Source of the DNA: Rodentibacter mrazii
Lineage (GTDB): Bacteria; Pseudomonadota; Gammaproteobacteria; Enterobacterales; Pasteurellaceae
NCBI RefSeq assembly: GCF_001998825.1
Contig: NZ_MLHG01000016.1
Coordinates: 1-48,185, forward strand
Direction: 5' to 3'
DNA: 48,185 bases
Part shown: positions 19,457 through 43,348 of the stretch, piece after piece
How the letters are laid out: each line of letters starts with the position of its first letter
Position numbering within the stretch: the first letter of the stretch is position 1
Made by a program: the position numbers and the translations under genes
Notes under the pieces: generated by a model
Seen by the model: only the letters and a program-made list of their open reading frames with translations
Told to the model about the DNA's origin: nothing
Database searches by the model: none

Positions 19457-21103
19457 TTACTCTGTTCCTAATTCCGCCACACTGGTTGCAATGTGATACT
19501 CCCACACTTCGCCTTTTCCTGTGATTTCCACATCAAAGAATAATGTGGCATAACCGGCTTTAAGGCGGTGTGGACGGCTGTCAATAACGGTTTTATCGCC
19601 CAGTACAACCGTATCTTGCACCATTTCACTACGATGCCGTTTATAGCCAATGTGCTTAACATAATTAGGTTCATAATCCTGCACCACCTTATATGCCGTC
19701 ATTGCCATATATTGTGGTAGATTATGTAAACGACCACGCCATCTAAAGGTTTTCCAATTATCCCCGGCATTCCATTGATAAATTCCATCATCAGTCGCAA
19801 AGAACAATTCATCTTGATCGCTACGATAGACAGCTTTAGGTTTAATGCTCAGTGTGGTTAATTGTTCAATTTGCACGTCTTCGTAAATCGAATCAGGGAC
19901 TTTAAAGCGGATAGAAATGCGATCGGTAAAACCAAAATAATAACCATCATGCACCACACCAATCATCTGCCAAGGGGCAAGAGCTTGCCATTGGTCTTTT
20001 GTATAAAGTGCGGTCGTCATCACCTTTGCTTGATTGCCGGCAAGCATCACTAACCCGTCTTTAGTCGCATAAAAACAAGCACCGTTATAAAGGCAAGCGG
20101 ATTGATACGAGATAATGGGCAGCGGTTCTTCTAACTGCGTGATAGAACGGCAACCTTGTGATTGGCAAGGACTTTCCATTTCAATCACGACTGGGTATTC
20201 GTCCGTTAAGATATACCCTGCTCGCTCACCACAAAGAAAGCGGATCGGCTTGCCGTTAAAGCGCCCATAGCGATAGGCTTCGGGGAAAGCGTGGGGCTTT
20301 AACGGTTCTGACAGCCAAAGCTCCGTTCCCACTAATCCACCAAGCTGACCGTTACCACAATACTGTAAATCGGTCATACATTCGTGTGGCGGTTCATATT
20401 CTTCCGTTAGACATTCTTCACCATAAACCGTATGGGCCTGATGAACATAACTGCCTATCCCAAAACTCACCTCATCAACCAATAAGAAATGGGCTTCGGC
20501 ATTTTGATCTTTGACTTGCTCACCATAATCAAGTTGAGTAACGGCACAATACAACCGCACTTTTTCGATAGAATAAGTCGGAAAAGATGTGGGCAGTCCG
20601 CTGATCACCACCGATTGATCGTTATGCACATAAATCGGATCACTCGGTAAACTTGGCGCACTTTCAAAACCAAATTCATCAACAAGCGTGTAAATGTATT
20701 GCCGTAGCTCTTGGTTAAAATCTTGGCTCAATGTTCCCAAGAATTGGGCATTGGGTGCGTTAAGTTCAACCGGAAAACCCAATCTGTTCCACTTATCATT
20801 GCAGGCATTATCTTTACGCTGAATAACGGGATAATCTTTAACACCACTCGCTACGATAAAACAACAATCTGTATCAATGCGGGAAAACGAGGCTTGGCAG
20901 TTATCACTTGCTAGAAAACAACATTTATCTACAAAGATTGAGTTGCCTGTTTTACCCGAGACTTTCTTATCCGTTCGCCACGGCCGCAATGTACCACGAG
21001 ATAAATCCACATCTTCGGCAACCTGAGCCATTGCTTGATGTAGATTGTTCGGGCGTTGCCGTGGGGCAATGCCACCAAATTGAGTGAGTTTGATTGAAGG
21101 CAT
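19457..21103 (-). CDS. Podovirus tail (nozzle/stabilisation-like) protein
   Basis: 548 residues from ATG 21103, with AAGGAAA just before it; a start 9 codons earlier would come out of the terminator. The N-terminus TQFGGIAPRQRPNNL, then AQVAEDVDLSRGTLRPW, is the signature of a family of podovirus tail proteins that precede a beta-propeller-like body. Body repeats include YILTDEYPVVIEMESPC and LFFATDDGIYQW. Many cysteines (CCFLASDNC, CECM-type pairs, QSQGCRS). It would form the lower tail tube through which DNA leaves. The family link is confident; the precise name (TTPB/gp10-like) is inference. Confidence 0.8.
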   Translation of the reverse strand: MPSIKLTQFGGIAPRQRPNNLHQAMAQVAEDVDLSRGTLRPWRTDKKVSGKTGNSIFVDKCCFLASDNCQASFSRIDTDCCFIVASGVKDYPVIQRKDNACNDKWNRLGFPVELNAPNAQFLGTLSQDFNQELRQYIYTLVDEFGFESAPSLPSDPIYVHNDQSVVISGLPTSFPTYSIEKVRLYCAVTQLDYGEQVKDQNAEAHFLLVDEVSFGIGSYVHQAHTVYGEECLTEEYEPPHECMTDLQYCGNGQLGGLVGTELWLSEPLKPHAFPEAYRYGRFNGKPIRFLCGERAGYILTDEYPVVIEMESPCQSQGCRSITQLEEPLPIISYQSACLYNGACFYATKDGLVMLAGNQAKVMTTALYTKDQWQALAPWQMIGVVHDGYYFGFTDRISIRFKVPDSIYEDVQIEQLTTLSIKPKAVYRSDQDELFFATDDGIYQWNAGDNWKTFRWRGRLHNLPQYMAMTAYKVVQDYEPNYVKHIGYKRHRSEMVQDTVVLGDKTVIDSRPHRLKAGYATLFFDVEITGKGEVWEYHIATSVAELGTE

Positions 21104-21122
21104 AGGTTTCCTTAAATGAAAA

Positions 21123-21149
21123 AACCGCACAATCTTGCGAAAGTGCGGT
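21123..21149 (-). terminator. Uptake-signal hairpin, copy 3
   Basis: Same 27-base hairpin as copy 2 (AACCGCAC, 12-base loop, GTGCGGT), between the KilA-N gene stop at 21167 and the nozzle-like gene start. Confidence 0.8.
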
Positions 21150-21166: not shown

Positions 21167-21790
21167 TTAATTAAGTAATTGGTAAAAGGCTTTGACTAAT
21201 GCCAATCGTTCCGTGTTGGATTGAATAAACTGTTTGGCTTTCGTCATCGTCTGTTCAAGTGGATATTTGAAATTGTGGAGATACTGCCCACCAATTTCAT
21301 TTTCCATTTGACCGGGAATGTTTGTCTTCCGTAGTTTTTCTTGCATTTCGTGCGCTTGGAAGCAGAAACTATACATCTTGATAAAAAGGGCTAATGCCTC
21401 TTCGCTTTGGGTAATATTGTCAAAATGATAGTCCGGTTCTGGCAAAGCAAGCTGTTTCGGTTCATTCCGGTGCATTGCTAAAAATGCCCGTAACACAACT
21501 AAATGAAATTTCGGGCTAATCCACATTGCGTAGCTTAAGACAAGTTCTTCGCAAGCCCAAGTTCCTTGAATAGAAATATCTTTGCCACCACGAATAGTTT
21601 TAATAGCGAAGATCGTTTTTGTGCTTCGCTCATTTTCAATCTCTTTTGCTAATTCTTTGGTTTGTTCATTACGAGCAAATAAACTTGGACGATGCTTTGG
21701 ATCATTTCCGCTTGCCAAGTGAAGATCATTTAAGGAATAGAGATTGTCTAAAGTACGAATTGATTGATTTAAAATAGATAAGTTTGTCAT
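21167..21790 (-). CDS. KilA-N domain antirepressor-like protein (module C)
   Basis: 207 residues. The KilA-N DNA-binding domain fills ~1-110: LYSLNDLHLASGNDPKHRP, GTWACEELVLSYAMWISPKF, HLVVLRAFLAM. The C-terminal part is helical. Closely related to the product of 42222-42887 (first 25 residues nearly identical). GGAG precedes the ATG, which follows a C4-type RNA and structured leader. KilA-N proteins of this layout are phage antirepressors, expressed to relieve CI repression. Its place in the middle of the late genes is unusual. Confidence 0.88.
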   Translation of the reverse strand: MTNLSILNQSIRTLDNLYSLNDLHLASGNDPKHRPSLFARNEQTKELAKEIENERSTKTIFAIKTIRGGKDISIQGTWACEELVLSYAMWISPKFHLVVLRAFLAMHRNEPKQLALPEPDYHFDNITQSEEALALFIKMYSFCFQAHEMQEKLRKTNIPGQMENEIGGQYLHNFKYPLEQTMTKAKQFIQSNTERLALVKAFYQLLN

Positions 21791-21841
21791 AACGACACTC
21801 CGTTAATTTTCGAAATTAAGATTTCCCTAAATAAATAGGGA

Positions 21842-21916
21842 GCCAAGAGGTTCGAAAGCCTAACGGTAGGCTGGAGTTATTCCCCTTTCGGGTATTGTAT
21901 TCCTCACCCTCTCGGC
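21842..21916 (-). ncRNA. Structured leader (C4 target) of module C
   Basis: On the minus strand GCCGAGAGG (21908-21916) pairs with CCTCTTGGC (21842-21850) with one G-U pair, enclosing a CCC-GAAA-GGG hairpin and a GCCTA/TAGGC hairpin. The TTTCGA at 21852-21857 complements the loop TCGAAA of the C4 RNA just upstream. The same fold, with different bases, occurs in modules A and B. It lies about 50 bases before the KilA-N start. Confidence 0.75.
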
Positions 21917-21987
21917 ATAGATTGAATTTTAGGTATGCACAATCAAAATTCGTTGGAAGAGAGAAAAGAGATCACGAATTTTACGCA

Positions 21988-22046
21988 TAAAAAAACCGCT
22001 ATGCTTTCGGGTGCGGATTTCCGCCGTTAAGGTTTCGACACCTTGG
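21988..22046 (-). ncRNA. C4-type antisense RNA, module C
   Basis: Starts about 7 bases after a TAGTAT -10 box. The first hairpin is AAGGTGTCGAAACCTT (22029-22044), the second GGCGGAAATCCGCAC. A weak CCG/CGG stem followed by seven T forms the terminator. GGTGTCGAAACC matches the recurring first hairpin of phage C4 antisense RNAs (P1 c4 type), which block translation of a downstream antirepressor. The C4 assignment is from memory of the motif. Confidence 0.75.
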
Positions 22047-22051
22047 GCGAG

Positions 22052-22080
22052 ATACTACTTTAGCTTTGGCGTAAGGTCAA
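22052..22080 (-). promoter_or_regulatory. Promoter of module C
   Basis: TTGACC (22075-22080), 17-bp spacer, TAGTAT (22052-22057) on the minus strand. The same layout, TTGAC(A)-17-TAGGAT, precedes the C4 RNAs of modules A and B. It lies inside the end of the 57-residue membrane gene. Confidence 0.75.
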
Positions 22081-22634: not shown

Positions 22635-23039
22635 TTACGGATAAACCGCTTTCAGTAATTCAAAATGTGGGCCATCATAGAACTTTTCGTCATCACTTCT
22701 GCCGTTGCGATTCCAATCACCGCCCCAACGAATAGGAATTTTTAATTCTTTAGAAGCTTGGAACATCGCTTTTGAAAGCTTTCCAAATTTCTCTAAATCA
22801 TTCCAATCCAGCGGATAAGGGACAATATCAACAGCGTGTCCGGTTAAATGACGGCTGTTCATTGTTTTGGTTGCACCTTGTGCAAATAAACGCTTTTGTT
22901 TAGCTTTACTACGCAATCCCTCAATCACAGTAAAATCGATTTCGGAAATTTCCAACGCTCTGCGAACTACTTTAACTAAATCTGAATGAACACCTTTGAG
23001 ATTATCCAAACTTCGTTGGCTAAATCGAAACTTACCCAT
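22635..23039 (-). CDS. Endolysin: M15-family L-alanyl-D-glutamate peptidase
   Basis: 134 residues, like phage T5 endolysin in size and motifs. It cuts the L-Ala to D-Glu (peptide) bond of peptidoglycan. Zinc ligands: H64 and D71 in SRHLTGHAVD, and H125 in DGPHFEL. The start at 23039 follows GGGGAGA and overlaps the end of the holin gene by 8 bases. No signal peptide, so release depends on the holin. The phage thus has two different wall enzymes: this and the GH24 lysozyme at 16945. Confidence 0.92.
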   Translation of the reverse strand: MGKFRFSQRSLDNLKGVHSDLVKVVRRALEISEIDFTVIEGLRSKAKQKRLFAQGATKTMNSRHLTGHAVDIVPYPLDWNDLEKFGKLSKAMFQASKELKIPIRWGGDWNRNGRSDDEKFYDGPHFELLKAVYP

Positions 23040-23361
23040 TATTTCTCCCCTTAGCTTGAATTGAGTAGCGAAGCGCCATTGCCCGCACTTTATCAATACC
23101 CAGTAACGCCACGATTGCGCCGATAGCAACGGATAGCTTTGGTGGCAGTGCTAAATACTCAAGTACCGATTCACTTGCGACAGCAATTAAACCGCAGAGA
23201 ATACTTTCAACAATCACTCTGGTTTTCTTGCGCTCTTTGCCGATATAGCAAATGCGGAAAATAGCAATAAAAAACGCCATCATAAAACTATGAATGGCGT
23301 TGAGGTTTGCTTGAATATAGGCGGCAATCATCGCCCATAAATTTGGATCTTTAGTTGGCAT
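23032..23361 (-). CDS. Holin (class with about three membrane segments)
   Basis: 109 residues from ATG 23361 (MPTKDPNLWAM), chosen because GGTGGAG lies 7 bases before it. Hydrophobic segments are about IHSFMMAFFIAIFRICYIG, VIVESILCGLIAVASES and LSVAIGAIVALLGI, and the C-terminus is basic (RYSIQAKGRNNG). This matches lambdoid holin family 3 (lambda S-like superfamily). It is directly followed by, and overlaps, the endolysin gene. Confidence 0.85.
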   Translation of the reverse strand: MPTKDPNLWAMIAAYIQANLNAIHSFMMAFFIAIFRICYIGKERKKTRVIVESILCGLIAVASESVLEYLALPPKLSVAIGAIVALLGIDKVRAMALRYSIQAKGRNNG

Positions 23362-34045: not shown

Positions 34046-34320
34046 TGGTTCTCTCCATATAAATTTTCAAACAGCACCGCAACTAAATCGTGAAATTTGC
34101 TGTAATCCTGTCCTTTACGAGGTATAAAGGCGATAGGTCTTTGCCACCATAAAACTTTAAGTCCACCGGAGTAACCGCCTTCAGTAAAGGTCAGCACTTT
34201 AGTGGACTCATTAAATTTCACATCACAAGTACCGGATTGAACACGCTGTACAATGCCATAGCCGTAGCGATCGTGCCAAACCTGATCACCTTGTTTGACT
34301 TCATCAAAATCAATTTTCAT
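34042..34320 (-). CDS. Small SH3/KOW-like phage protein
   Basis: 92 residues. The opening IDFDEVKQGDQVWHDRYGYG-IVQRV is a small beta-barrel pattern seen in KOW/CarD-type modules. It follows portal by stop/start overlap and is located where other podoviruses have small head proteins. Function not known. Confidence 0.6.
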   Translation of the reverse strand: MKIDFDEVKQGDQVWHDRYGYGIVQRVQSGTCDVKFNESTKVLTFTEGGYSGGLKVLWWQRPIAFIPRKGQDYSKFHDLVAVLFENLYGENQ

Positions 34321-40966: not shown

Positions 40967-41149
40967 ATGCGATCCAGCGACTTAATCAAGGAACTCAAAA
41001 ATGCAGGTTGCACTTTTGTTCGGCACGGTAAAGGCGATCATCAAATATGGAAATCGCCCATCACAGGAAAGACGTTTCCTGTTCCGCACCCCAAGCAACA
41101 TGTCCCAATCGGCACATTGAGATCCATCAAAAAATTGGCAGGGCTTTAG
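40967..41149 (+). CDS. hicA: HicA mRNA interferase toxin
   Basis: 60 residues, the usual HicA size. A double-stranded-RNA-binding-like fold with catalytic His in FVRHGKGDHQIWKSP. Ends VPIGTLRSIKKLAGL. HicA cuts mRNA independently of translation. AAGGAGG precedes the ATG. Antitoxin gene follows 28 bases later. On the plus strand against the early operon. Confidence 0.95.
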   Translation: MRSSDLIKELKNAGCTFVRHGKGDHQIWKSPITGKTFPVPHPKQHVPIGTLRSIKKLAGL

Positions 41150-41177: not shown

Positions 41178-41606
41178 ATGTTATTTACTATCGGCATTGA
41201 AACCCCTACAAACAAAAATGAAGCCTACGGTATTGCCGTCCCCGTCTTGTTTACGGAAAAATACGCTTGCGTAAGTGCAGCAGATACCCTTGAAGAAATC
41301 CCAACGCAAGCCACAGATGCCATTCATTCCATCTTAGAAATGATGTTTGAAGGCGGGGACGACATCAGCCAACTTCAAGACAAAGGCTACAAACACTACC
41401 AAAGCCTAGAAGAGTTTAATTATTGCGATACTTGGCTCTTGCTTGATGTGGATATTTCCCCTTATCAAGGAAAACGCCAGCGCATTAACATCAGCTTGCC
41501 GGAATATCTCATCAAACGCATTGATAGCCGTGTCGCAAGTAACCCCATATACAAAGACCGTAGCCACTTTTTAGCGATTGCCTCGCAAAAAGAGTTACGC
41601 CAATAA
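41178..41606 (+). CDS. hicB: HicB antitoxin
   Basis: 142 residues. An N-terminal degraded RNase H-like HicB domain (AVPVLFTEKYACVSAADTLE; VDISPYQGKR) is followed by a C-terminal ribbon-helix-helix-like part (INISLPEYLIKRIDSRVASN). It binds HicA and represses the operon. AAAGGAG ribosome site. The C4/KilA-N module A begins 14 bases after its stop. Confidence 0.93.
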   Translation: MLFTIGIETPTNKNEAYGIAVPVLFTEKYACVSAADTLEEIPTQATDAIHSILEMMFEGGDDISQLQDKGYKHYQSLEEFNYCDTWLLLDVDISPYQGKRQRINISLPEYLIKRIDSRVASNPIYKDRSHFLAIASQKELRQ

Positions 41607-41619
41607 CCTTTCCCTACCC

Positions 41620-41648
41620 TTGACAACCCCAACTGTTAAGGGTAGGAT
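41620..41648 (+). promoter_or_regulatory. Promoter of module A
   Basis: TTGACA (41620-41625), 17-bp spacer, TAGGAT (41643-41648). Same spacing and boxes as module B (41942) and, with one change in each box, module C. Confidence 0.8.
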
Positions 41649-41654
41649 TTGTTT

Positions 41655-41716
41655 CAAGGTGTCAGAACCTTATGAAAAGCGGTAATCCGCAACCGAAATC
41701 CTTTGCGGTTTTTTTG
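41655..41716 (+). ncRNA. C4-type antisense RNA, module A
   Basis: First hairpin AAGGT-GTCAGA-ACCTT (41656-41671), second GCGG/CCGC (41679-41690), then a terminator AACCG/CGGTT with a T run. About 60 bases if it ends there. Loop TCAGAA (41662-41667) is complementary to TTCTGA (41845-41850) in the downstream leader. Matches phage C4 RNA design. Confidence 0.75.
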
Positions 41717-41899
41717 TATCTAAAATTTGTGATCTCTTTTCTCTTTCCCACAATTTTTGTACAAAAAGGTAATTTACAATCTATGATCGAGTGGGCGGCT
41801 AATACAATACCTTCGGGGAATATGCCCAGCCGACTTTTCACGGTTTCTGAACCACTCGATCGCCCGAATTATCGGGATTTCTCTCAAAAGGAAACGTAA
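41672..41899 (+). CDS. Icd/Ash-like leader ORF
   Basis: 75 codons starting inside the C4 region (MKSGNPQPKSFAVFLYLKFV) and ending at the ribosome site of the KilA-N stump. KSFAVFLYLKFVISF resembles the recurring AVFLCL motif of Icd (P1 inhibitor of cell division) and Ash-like phage peptides, which lie between c4 and ant. In modules B and C the same frame is interrupted. Translation is possible but unproved; the RNA role may be primary. Confidence 0.55.
   Translation: MKSGNPQPKSFAVFLYLKFVISFLFPTIFVQKGNLQSMIEWAANTIPSGNMPSRLFTVSEPLDRPNYRDFSQKET
41785..41861 (+). ncRNA. Structured leader (C4 target) of module A
   Basis: GATCGAGTGG (41785-41794) pairs perfectly with CCACTCGATC (41852-41861) and encloses smaller hairpins, including CCG/CGG around 41831-41843. 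TTCTGA next to the 3' arm complements the C4 loop. It is followed by AAAGGAAACG, the ribosome site of the truncated KilA-N frame. Confidence 0.75.
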
Positions 41900-41901
41900 C
41901 T

Positions 41902-41961
41902 ATGTCAAATCTAACTATTCTCAACACTTCAATTCGTTCCCTTGACAAACTTTCCCGTTGA
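41902..41961 (+). pseudogene. KilA-N gene stump of module A
   Basis: MSNLTILNTSIRSLDKLSR then stop, 19 residues. The first 12 are identical to the start of the intact KilA-N protein of module B. The sequence then runs straight into the promoter of module B, so most of the gene was lost, probably by recombination between tandem modules. The -35 box of module B lies within its codons. Confidence 0.85.
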
Positions 41962-41970
41962 GAGTAGGAT
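41942..41970 (+). promoter_or_regulatory. Promoter of module B
   Basis: TTGACA (41942-41947), 17-bp spacer, TAGGAT (41965-41970). The -35 box corresponds in place to the Leu-Asp codons (CTTGAT) of the intact KilA-N gene, so part of the promoter seems to have been made from coding sequence. Confidence 0.8.
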
Positions 41971-41976
41971 TTCTTC

Positions 41977-42047
41977 CAACGGTGGAGTCGAAACCCCGTT
42001 GATTTTTTAGTAACTCGCTATTTCACTGCGTTAATGTGATTTTTTTG
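41977..42047 (+). ncRNA. C4-type antisense RNA, module B
   Basis: CAACGG (41978-41983) and CCGTTG (41996-42001) form a hairpin whose loop has GTCGAAACC, followed by T6 (terminator 1). A second hairpin TCAC/GTGA with T7 follows (42023-42046). Loop TCGAAA (41988-41993) is complementary to TTTCGA (42177-42182). More diverged than A and C; the central GCGG/CCGC hairpin is missing. Confidence 0.65.
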
Positions 42048-42123
42048 TATCTAAAATTTGTGATTACTCTTTCTTTTTACCGCAAAATTTAATGGTACAA
42101 AAACAAGATACATTTCAATCTAT

Positions 42124-42193
42124 GGTTAGGTGGGTGTGGGAATAACCAATACCACACGCCGTCTAGTTACTACGGTTTTCGAACCACCTAACC
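42124..42193 (+). ncRNA. Structured leader (C4 target) of module B
   Basis: GGTTAGGTGG (42124-42133) pairs perfectly with CCACCTAACC (42184-42193). Inside are GTGTGG/CCACAC and CCGT/ACGG hairpins. TTTCGA at 42177-42182 complements the module B C4 loop. Between the C4 RNA and this stem (42048-42123) no ORF is left. Confidence 0.75.
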
Positions 42194-42221
42194 ACCATTC
42201 CATTCGAAAGGAAACGTAACT

Positions 42222-42887
42222 ATGTCAAATCTAACTATTCTCAACACTTCAATCCGTACCCTTGATAATCTTTATTCTTTAAACGATCTTCATCGTATTA
42301 GTGGATCTGAAAAAAACTACCAACCTAATTTTTTTATTCGTAACCAACAAACCAAAGAACTCATTGCTGAAATTGAGCGATCTGCAAATTCTATGATCGC
42401 TATAAAAACAGTTCGTGGTGGTCGTAATCCAGCATTACAAGGTACTTGGGCTTGCAAAGAACTCGTTATCGCCTACGCTGCATGGGTAAGCCCTGCTTTT
42501 CACCTTGTCGTCCTCAGAGCGTTCCTCAACCAAATTGAGCCACCGAAACAACTCGCTTTGCCTAATCCTGAACACAAATTCCCATTTGAACACTCAGAGT
42601 ATGAACTCCAATGTATGGCGTGGGATTGGTTCGCCTTATTTAAATGCGTTGAGTTCACGAGTTATATTTTGCCGGCACTGGAAAACATTCAATCCAAGTT
42701 CGCCGCACAAGCCAGTAGCATTGTTAGCGAATATGGTTCAATGCTCCGCCGTCATCAACCCATCATTCAAAAACTCACTGCCGAATTTAAAACCGGAATG
42801 TGGCAACATGAAAACTGGAATCGGGTCTTGCCCACTATTCAGGATAATGATGTGCTTCGCCCAAAACGGCAACTCGGCAAATTCTAA
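42222..42887 (+). CDS. KilA-N domain antirepressor-like protein (module B)
   Basis: 221 residues. KilA-N domain ~1-110: NLYSLNDLHRISGSEKNYQP, GTWACKELVIAYAAWVSPAF, HLVVLRAFLNQ. The C-terminal half is different from its relative at 21167 (WHENW-type Trp-rich, ends RPKRQLGKF). AAAGGAAACG precedes the ATG. Controlled, by inference, by the C4 RNA upstream. It is encoded against the early operon, between ninB and hicAB. Confidence 0.9.
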   Translation: MSNLTILNTSIRTLDNLYSLNDLHRISGSEKNYQPNFFIRNQQTKELIAEIERSANSMIAIKTVRGGRNPALQGTWACKELVIAYAAWVSPAFHLVVLRAFLNQIEPPKQLALPNPEHKFPFEHSEYELQCMAWDWFALFKCVEFTSYILPALENIQSKFAAQASSIVSEYGSMLRRHQPIIQKLTAEFKTGMWQHENWNRVLPTIQDNDVLRPKRQLGKF

Positions 42888-42902: not shown

Positions 42903-42922
42903 AACCGCACTTCGGTGCGGTT
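42903..42922. terminator. Terminator between KilA-N and ninB genes
   Basis: AACCGCAC-TTCG-GTGCGGTT: perfect 8-bp stem with a UUCG tetraloop made from two uptake signals, then T4. It ends the convergent transcripts. Confidence 0.85.
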
Positions 42923-43348
42923 TTATCTTCCCCAAAATCCCCATCTGTCGTTAAACTTCACACCGTTTTGCACGCCCCAAGCGGTGACATATTCAATCAA
43001 ACTTGCGAGCCGTTTCACGCCCATCTGTGCCGTAGATTCACGCAGATTTATCACCTCGCCCTCAAGCCCGATTGCCATTTCTGCTTTTCCACCTGTCGCA
43101 ATTCGATGCGCCGACACCATAATCATCTTCCAAGTATCAATATCCCGTTTTTTCCCTTGAAACTCGCATTGTTTGCTAATATCACCCAACATCGCATGTA
43201 ACTTGGCATTTTGTGCCTGTGTACGTGTCATTGGCTGCACCTTCACCACTAACGGCTTTTTCTCGTCTGTTGGTAAATCCCTGATAAACTCAATGCAATT
43301 TGACCGCACTTGCTCATTACGCAAGAAAAATGGTTGTTTATCGGTCAT
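42923..43348 (-). CDS. ninB: NinB recombination protein
   Basis: 141 residues: FIRDLPTDEKKPLVVKVQPM, TRTQAQNAKLHAMLGDISKQ, and the C-terminal RESTAQMGVKRLASLIEYVT followed by GWGV-type aromatic sequence (FNDRWGFWGR). Lambda NinB (Orf) mediates loading of recombinase on SSB-coated DNA. The start overlaps dnaB by 4 bases. A truncated copy of the N-terminus is at 2690-2863. Confidence 0.9.
   Translation of the reverse strand: MTDKQPFFLRNEQVRSNCIEFIRDLPTDEKKPLVVKVQPMTRTQAQNAKLHAMLGDISKQCEFQGKKRDIDTWKMIMVSAHRIATGGKAEMAIGLEGEVINLRESTAQMGVKRLASLIEYVTAWGVQNGVKFNDRWGFWGR

Follow-up and report, generated by a model that had tools for sequence, protein, structure and literature searches.

Candidate C4-type antisense immunity units with paired sequence addresses in a Rodentibacter mrazii prophage

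Introduction

Antirepressor-type genes are thought to wake dormant prophages, and in P1/P7-type systems the C4 RNA, which is processed by RNase P to about 77 nt, represses antirepressor synthesis. A prophage in the 48,185-nucleotide stretch of Rodentibacter mrazii DNA analysed here (the window) contains three units, A, B and C, that seem to be laid out for control of this kind, which raises the questions of which RNA in each unit would be the antisense RNA, what it would recognise, and whether the units would act on one another or apart. Published systems are cited below from the available parts of the respective papers.

Results

Organization of the three units

Each unit comprises, in the letters of the window, a TTGAC[AC]-17-TAG[GT]AT promoter, a short hairpin region, a T7 run and a stem-closed long RNA, whose outer stem is ~9-11 bp (Table 1). 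An earlier note on this DNA had described three such units with a promoter, a T run and a closed-stem leader, and these are present at coordinates that agree with the sequence; it had also given a KilA-N gene to all three, whereas only B and C carry one. Unit C, the one that the note had placed in the late operon, lies co-oriented between an endolysin-family gene (22635-23129) and an internal virion protein-family gene (19457-21130) on the minus strand. On the plus strand, units A and B follow one another head to tail behind a HicB-like antitoxin gene, with NinG and NinB on the opposite (minus) strand. The prophage genes are lambdoid, and include NinB, NinG, a DnaB-like helicase, an O-like gene and a Q-like gene, the last just under the Pfam cut-off.

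Several other features lie in or beside the units. The HicB-like antitoxin gene (Pfam HicB_lk_antitox, 41178-41606) is immediately 5' of unit A, with a possible partner in the 60-codon frame at 40967-41149. The unit A promoter lies within a perfect inverted repeat of 9 bp at 41613-41646 (CCTACCCTT / AAGGGTAGG, 16-nt spacing), which is possibly an operator; no such repeat was seen by eye at the B or C promoters. An extra AT-rich hairpin of the AAAATTTGTG..CACAATTTT type, perhaps with a role in processing, lies between the terminator and the long RNA in each unit (41722-41758, 42053-42090 and, on the minus strand, 21982-21945). Terminator-like hairpins with ACCGCACTT-type arms are found 3' of both KilA-N genes (21150-21119 on the minus strand, and 42904-42924); we take these arms to resemble Pasteurellaceae DNA-uptake signals.

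Table 1. Features assigned to units A, B and C, in window coordinates
Unit	Feature	Position	Strand	Basis or remark
A	Promoter TTGACA-17-TAGGAT	41620-41648	+	Window letters
A	a1 hairpin, loop TGTCAGAA; TCAGAA complementary to the predicted C4-A a' segment	41656-41671	+	Complement search
A	b1 site TGAAAAG, exact complement of the predicted C4-A P3 loop	41673-41679	+	
A	Proposed antiterminator (CGG..CCG) and intrinsic terminator (CCGC..GCGG-T7)	41680-41715	+	Proposed short-RNA end
A	T7 run	41709-41715	+	
A	Predicted C4-type RNA	41785-41869	+	sRNA-Xcc1 RF02221, 61.5 bits; P3 and a' segment 41828-41853
A	Stub frame, 19 codons, truncated KilA-N start	41902-41961	+	First 12 residues as in B
B	Promoter TTGACA-17-TAGGAT	41942-41970	+	-35 box within the end of the A stub, -10 box beyond the stub
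B	a1 hairpin CAACGG/CCGTTG, TCGAAA in loop, then first T run	41977-42008	+	
B	b1 site TAGTAACT, 8-nt complement of the predicted C4-B P3 loop	42008-42015	+	
B	Terminator TCAC..GTGA-T7	42023-42046	+	T7 at 42040-42046
B	Predicted C4-type RNA	42118-42202	+	C4 RF01695, 35.4 bits at 42118-42199; P3 and a' segment 42158-42185
B	a2 TTCGAAA and b2 GTAACTA (b2 overlaps the A of ATG)	42203-42222	+	
B	Antirepressor-type gene, KilA-N and P22_AR_C	42222-42887	+	Pfam
C	Promoter TTGACC-17-TAGTAT	22052-22080	-	Window letters
C	a1 hairpin AAGG-TGTCGAAA-CCTT and b1 TAACGG	22024-22044	-	
C	Proposed antiterminator and terminator CCGC..GCGG-T7	21989-22023	-	T7 at 21995-21989
C	Predicted C4-type RNA	21834-21916	-	sRNA-Xcc1 RF02221, 69.4 bits; P3 and a' segment 21849-21872
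C	a2 TTTCGAAA and b2 TTAACGG, overlapping Shine-Dalgarno GGAG	21798-21815	-	
C	KilA-N gene	21167-21790	-	Pfam

Assignment of the C4-type RNA and its target

The earlier note had taken the short terminated RNA as C4 and the long leader as its target, and had named a search of these stretches with the C4 covariance model as a check. When run, this search placed a sub-threshold C4 match on the long leader of B and sRNA-Xcc1 matches on leaders A and C, and found nothing on the short RNAs. At the curated cut-offs (45 bits for C4, RF01695; 53 for sRNA-Xcc1, RF02221; 50 for IsrK, RF01394), a cmscan covering the whole window returned sRNA-Xcc1 on C and on A (Table 1), plus one tRNA. Leader B, which is below the cut-off of both RF01695 and RF02221, matched C4 with 35.4 bits (E 5.8e-5) and sRNA-Xcc1 with 33.3 bits at a relaxed threshold. 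The Rfam models of C4, c4-a1b1 (RF03163) and isrK gave no match to the short RNAs of A, B or C at E<=5. Since B scores 35.4 bits against a cut-off of 45, and A and C score above the RF02221 cut-off and were reported only as RF02221, we call the units C4-type and do not file them as RF01695 members.

The model alignments of A, B and C contain the three-stem fold (P1, P2 and P3) with two exposed variable segments. Free folding gave all three stems in B, and P1, a P2-like hairpin and P3 in C; in A only P1 and P3 agree with the model. Two further traits of the C4 family were looked for: a1/b1 lies upstream in the same predicted transcript in A, B and C, and a2/b2 lies at the antirepressor start site in B and C and is absent from A. 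In phage P1 itself, our scan gave C4 at 68.8 bits, c4-a1b1 at 51.0 bits and a sub-threshold isrK match (35.1 bits) that covers a1/b1 together with the terminator-like hairpin that follows, and the annotated features a1, b1, c4, a2 and b2 of the P1 record concur. By the Rfam matches and the P1 element order, the roles given in the earlier note are swapped: the short terminated RNA is the predicted target, carrying a1/b1, and the long leader is the predicted C4-type antisense RNA.

Addresses of the units in the window

The address logic was taken from the P1 record, where a pairs with the C4 strand after P3 and b with the P3 loop. Exact complements of each unit's own C4 were found in its leader (TGAAAAG and TCAGAA in A; TAGTAACT and TCGAAA in B; TAACGG and TCGAAA in C) and at the start sites of B (TTCGAAA and GTAACTA) and C (TAACGG and TTCGAAA), the a/b sites of B and C being identified by hand, outside the rule-based count described below. 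The start site of A holds no C4-A complement above 5 nt, and the GTAACTA before the A stub (41896-41902) fits C4-B, not C4-A. In shuffles of single units, whose complements are short, the b match in the leader had p values of 0.04 (A), 0.007 (B) and 0.05 (C) and the a match 0.11-0.28; the values were 0.01-0.09 at the start sites of B and C, and 0.47 and 0.85 at that of A.

Duplex energies with leaders A/B/C were -24.9/-14.0/-14.4 for C4-A and -15.6/-14.3/-21.7 for C4-C, each of which favours its own leader. C4-B did not discriminate (-15.3/-16.5/-17.5), because B and C have the same a segment and different b segments. With start sites A/B/C the energies were -9.1/-9.1/-9.6 for C4-A, -10.9/-14.7/-13.7 for C4-B and -7.4/-11.9/-17.0 for C4-C. 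By address, unit A is predicted to be independent of B and C, and B and C to share a and differ in b. The proposal in the earlier note that the units tune one another is thus mostly not predicted, save that the shared a segment makes some cross-talk between B and C possible. Four nucleotides in the a' region are reported to be enough to restrict P1 versus P7 (PMC5320573); for B and C, which differ in b, heteroimmunity is conjecture.

Address matches across genomes and viruses

The R. mrazii genome has 8 RF02221 matches, 5 of them above the cut-off, and at least one match at E<=1e-4 was found in 69 of 140 Pasteurellaceae genomes. The earlier note had thought several units per genome unusual, which does not fit the family, as one genome (G087) has 28 sRNA-Xcc1 matches at E<=1e-4. 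From the matches listed, we assembled a family set of 142 units in the own genome (8) and the 140 family genomes; one had no flank and two had no P3 by our rule (unit B and one in L116), which left 139 units with 94 distinct loops. Each distinct loop was counted once, and a match was an exact complement of at least 6 nt.

The unit's own leader holds the loop complement for 85 of the 94 loops (mean 23.4 and maximum 39 in 10000 swaps), and its own 75 nt downstream for 74 (10000 swaps: mean 13.1, maximum 26); both sides were matched in 70/94 and either side in 89/94. As upstream controls, the uncomplemented loop was found in 18, the reversed loop in 16 and the complement in the own coding region in 18 of the 94, and downstream the uncomplemented and reversed loops were found in 5 and 8. 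Adjoining the b sites, the a segments matched in 72 of 85 cases for a1 (swaps: mean 20.7, maximum 36) and in 57 of 74 for a2 (mean 16.1, maximum 27). Downstream matches lie 21-34 nt 3' of C4 in 69/74. Ten of the 85 upstream matches have no CGG directly after them, and four of these ten lie elsewhere in the leader (L017, L047, L074 and L121). Within this count unit A is an upstream match and a downstream miss, B is absent, and C is missed on both sides (5 nt) because the rule trimmed its loop to six bases. The rule-based stem finder replaced a fold-based extraction after the data had been seen; the latter gave 71/96 upstream and 63/96 downstream.

Whole-segment duplex energies were also tried as an address test on 118 distinct cores and were rejected, the own leader ranking first in only 13/118 (median rank 19) and the own downstream site in 19/118 (median rank 6.5). 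Their means are still far from the swaps (z -13.6 for the leader, -20.2 downstream), and we think that the poor ranking comes from dominance of the constant stem sequence.

Two further sets, of at least 120 stretches each, were collected with an exact core pattern. Among the matches listed for genome contigs, 113 were usable (8 were dropped for a short flank or no P3) and gave 70 distinct loops, 5 of them in common with the family set. In this set b1 was found for 59/70 (swaps: mean 10.1, maximum 20) and b2 for 38/70 (mean 3.8, maximum 11), with a segments in 52/59 upstream and 22/38 downstream; the 32/70 loops without b2 include many from Xanthomonadaceae. Among the matches listed for viral contigs, 116 were usable, 7 were dropped, and the 66 distinct loops had 55 upstream and 52 downstream matches; this set appears to include the window itself, as L322 (IMGVR_UViG_2791354949_000003) has the same length of 48185 bases and its retrieved stretch falls within the window. 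For the 44 of these listed loops that are new relative to the other sets, 37 matched upstream (swaps: mean 6.6, maximum 16) and 35 downstream (mean 4.3, maximum 12).

The 85 proteins starting <=75 nt behind distinct loops, many of them truncated where the retrieved sequence stopped, contained Bro-N (30), P22_AR_C (24), KilA-N (22), P22_AR_N (18), AntA (10) and ORF6C (5) domains, and three other domains once each. The range of these domains behind C4 units suggests an RNA module common to several antirepressor types. The sRNA-Xcc1-type RNAs of Xanthomonas, Rhodanobacter and Dyella (L142, L148, L150, L160, L174, L185, L198 and others) have an upstream a1/b1 and a terminator and no b2 downstream, as orphan-like C4 RNAs. 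The next frame of L148, L150, L175, L188 and L202 contains GYFLPE.

Possible attenuation at the terminator

A CGG lies directly 3' of b1 in 75/85 family leaders and, among the matches listed, in 56/59 genome-contig leaders. In the leaders inspected by eye the CCG partner sits in an arm or the loop of the terminator, so that the antiterminator and terminator hairpins would be mutually exclusive. Variant pairs were seen by eye in L054 (CAGC/GCTG) and in unit B and L064 (CGC/GCG), and no obvious antiterminator partner was seen by eye in L055, L057 or L119. A T tract was found by rule in 132/140 leaders (raw count).

Attenuation was assessed with the partition function while sites were blocked. 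Blocking b1 alone left the mean over 85 family leaders unchanged (0.56 -> 0.56), whereas blocking b1 and three further bases raised it to 0.76, with a rise of >0.1 in 43/85 leaders versus 22/85 with a control block. In 47 genome-contig leaders, among the matches listed, the mean went from 0.78 to 0.84 (11 leaders versus 9 with the control). Unit A went from 0.08 to 0.86, but reached 0.75 with its control block; elsewhere in the own genome L002 went from 0.75 to 0.99, L006 from 0.15 to 0.21 and L008 from 0.65 to 0.58, and L004 (at 1.0) and L005 (near 0) were unchanged. Unit C is outside this count because its scripted b1 match is only 5 nt. Attenuation at the terminator is kept as a hypothesis, to which the energy test lends no more than moderate support.

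The Gifsy-1 IsrK locus

In NC_010392 (L260, 34131-34329), isrK (79.3 bits) and c4-a1b1 (48.1 bits) matches overlap on one leader, and a C4 match (69.0 bits) lies 25 nt behind this leader, before the antirepressor gene. With +1 at 34316, the positions C18, G28, G31, A107, G114, U120, G121, C159, C162, G173 and C175 published for this locus have the expected base in 11/11 cases; G28 and G31 fall in GGCGT (a1), and C159 and C162 in ACGCC of the C4 a'. For the compensatory pairs G28/C162 and G31/C159, the double mutants are described as recovering the wild-type conformation in native gels, with expression decreasing only in part (PMC4825925). Complements before anrP, identified by eye only, are TTGGCGT and ATCACCGGAGG. 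On this alignment IsrK is the predicted a1/b1 leader, the next RNA is a predicted C4, and the published IsrK mutants fall within the predicted a1:a' pairing. The paper itself proposes that STnc1160 may act on the terminator, and a term search found no C4 or P1 term in it (PMC4825925).

Units without an antirepressor gene

Unit A has an intact promoter, a1, b1, terminator and C4, and in place of its gene a 19-codon stub with no cognate a2/b2. In the family set, a frame of at least 60 codons starts within 75 nt in 129/139 units, 104 with b2 and 25 without, and neither frame nor b2 is present in 6/139, namely A and one unit each in G011, G012, G027, G064 and G083. Each of these six orphans has a b1 match, 6-7 nt long. 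Close behind five of them lies another unit detected with the Rfam models (B, behind A, being below cut-off); behind the sixth, a pattern search gave a C4-like scaffold. An A-like leader and C4, nearly unchanged, stand before a cognate a2/b2 in another species of the genus (L115/L266); the open frame of this complete unit is at least 291 codons long and, by eye, looks like the start of B. Five clustered sRNA-Xcc1 copies are also described in Xylella, where they are interpreted as exported RNAs (PMC12189769).

We searched the 140 genomes for the cognate a2/b2 of four of the six orphans. The sites of A gave 8 rows at 7 sites, and one of the 3 examined lies behind a C4 unit (G125); the G064 orphan has 3 sites, all examined, one behind a C4 unit (G110, L398). 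The G011 orphan has no cognate site in the 140 genomes, and none of the 5 examined of the 7 sites of the G027 orphan lies behind a C4. The remaining sites (L263, L264, L265, L267, L390 and L392) are outside the examined subset. Since patterns read backwards matched 2 (A), 11 (G064), 1 (G011) and 3 (G027) times, bare site counts are meaningless, and we give weight only to sites that follow a C4. Plain descent would also be expected to produce shared addresses.

Discussion

Comparison of architecture, address matches and the antirepressor-type genes downstream indicates that each of the three units is very probably a C4-type antisense immunity switch or a derivative of one. C4 control of antirepressors, put forward in the earlier note, is still the best reading, with three units present, the RNA roles exchanged and unit A left without a gene.

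In the mechanism that we infer from sequence, one promoter would give one transcript that holds the target leader (a1 hairpin, b1 and intrinsic terminator), the C4-type RNA and the antirepressor gene. Read-through beyond the terminator would yield the C4 RNA, probably excised from the transcript, with its P3 hairpin loop (b') and the following strand (a') exposed as variable segments. Pairing of a'/b' with a2/b2 at the ribosome-binding site would keep the antirepressor silent in the lysogen. We propose attenuation and sponge action as hypotheses for the other half of the switch: a'/b' would also pair with a1/b1 of new transcripts and, since b1 adjoins an arm of the terminator-competing hairpin, this pairing should favour termination, and the terminated short RNA, with the same a1/b1, may titrate C4. 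By soaking up C4, the short RNA would let the antirepressor through when the promoter fires strongly or when a phage enters a C4-free cell. The a/b pair would serve as a private address, so that differently addressed units in one cell would act apart; C4-A, with neither a gene nor a2/b2, would be limited to its own leader or to action in trans. In Gifsy-1 the published text speaks against a simple sponge, as co-expression of orf45 (STnc1160) with IsrK gives stronger growth arrest and anrP activation requires orf45 translation (PMC4825925).

Two other assignments of the RNAs have to be weighed against this mechanism. In the first, the short terminated RNA would act as the C4 repressor on the long leader; this has in its favour that the short RNA has a terminator and carries complements to the long leader. 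We find it scarcely credible, as in every unit the C4 or sRNA-Xcc1 models fall on the long RNA (below cut-off in B) and no such match falls on the short one, a1/b1 is the first element and C4 the second in the P1 record, and short IsrK supplied in trans activates the antirepressor in Gifsy-1, raising anrP translation 114- to 171-fold from the wild-type fusion in most of the series (PMC4825925). The long RNA might instead be a cis-acting mRNA leader only, whose folding alone, with no released RNA, sets antirepressor translation and termination. Here a1/b1 and C4 do lie in one predicted transcript and could pair in cis, as they do in structure A at the isrK locus, where orf45 translation and coupling matter (PMC4825925). 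However, 6/139 units have no gene yet retain both C4 and a b1 match, related C4 RNAs of A. baumannii have more reads over the C4 part, interpreted as processing (PMC5320573), and sRNA-Xcc1 was mapped as an 88-nt RNA (PMC2996969), so we consider a leader acting solely in cis improbable.

For unit A in particular, the chances seem even that it is functionless debris of tandem recombination. Its gene is cut at 19 codons and shares its first 12 residues with B, an a2/b2-like sequence of another address stands in its start region, and orphans are few; against this, its promoter, a1, b1, terminator and C4 are intact and self-matching, every orphan has its b1 match, and the near-identical leader and C4 stand before a cognate a2/b2 and a long frame in another species. 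Our wider hypothesis of trans-immunity holds that orphan C4-type RNAs like A are kept as stored-address RNA immunity against the antirepressors of other phages, that the short a1/b1 RNAs are anti-immunity sponges, and that sRNA-Xcc1 and IsrK/STnc1160 belong to the same system; as a whole we rate it as possible and rather unlikely.

Returning to the C4-type switch, among the described systems closest to it is P1/P7 immI (C4 RF01695 and c4-a1b1 RF03163, clan CL00128), which has the same promoter, a1/b1, C4, a2/b2 at the start site and antirepressor operon, a three-stem C4 and, in P1, a terminator-like hairpin after b1 that is covered by the isrK model. The window units differ in that A and C fit RF02221 and not RF01695, the gene encodes a KilA-N protein with no icd frame before it, and unit A has neither gene nor a2/b2; moreover, the most variable segment in the units studied here is b, but P1 and P7 are reported to differ in a' (PMC5320573). 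The Gifsy-1 IsrK/STnc1160/anrP locus likewise has a terminated leader RNA, a C4-scoring RNA and an antirepressor gene in this order, with the a1:a' pairing backed there by compensatory mutants (PMC4825925). Unlike Gifsy-1, the window leaders have no isrK model match, and the paper, in its available text, describes the second RNA in terms of orf45 and translational coupling and likens IsrK to P4 SeqA (PMC4825925).

Units A and C are members of sRNA-Xcc1 by score. That family is described as a Xanthomonas sRNA found in integron cassettes, with a link to HrpG/HrpX and many predicted host targets (PMC2996969, PMC12444791, PMC12189769); the window copies differ in preceding antirepressor-type genes and having cognate a1/b1 and a2/b2. 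The C4-like Group 1 sRNAs of A. baumannii, with 21 C4-type RNAs in one genome and a variable target segment, are similar, but the available parts of that report assign them no cognate target, whereas most units here carry their own (PMC5320573). The CI RNA of satellite P4 with seqA/seqC, set beside our units by description only, is also a processed RNA that pairs up- and downstream of itself and stops transcription (PMC4825925). In Rfam, C4 and c4-a1b1 share one clan, and isrK and sRNA-Xcc1 have none; one table lists C4, isrK and sRNA-Xcc1 as separate families (PMC12189769), and a review covering IsrK and C4 RNA treats them apart in the parts available. A literature search, with most subscription papers outside it, found no published statement of C4, isrK and sRNA-Xcc1 as one system.

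The unit design would join three RNA families that are listed apart in Rfam. It would give a mechanism to sRNA-Xcc1 sRNAs, which have so far been interpreted as virulence-linked or exported, and offers a new reading of the IsrK locus, for which published mutants are to hand. C4-type phage immunity groups would become readable from sequence as a pair of short addresses, and orphans in tandem would offer a way to test whether a lysogen stores RNA immunity to phages absent from its own genome.
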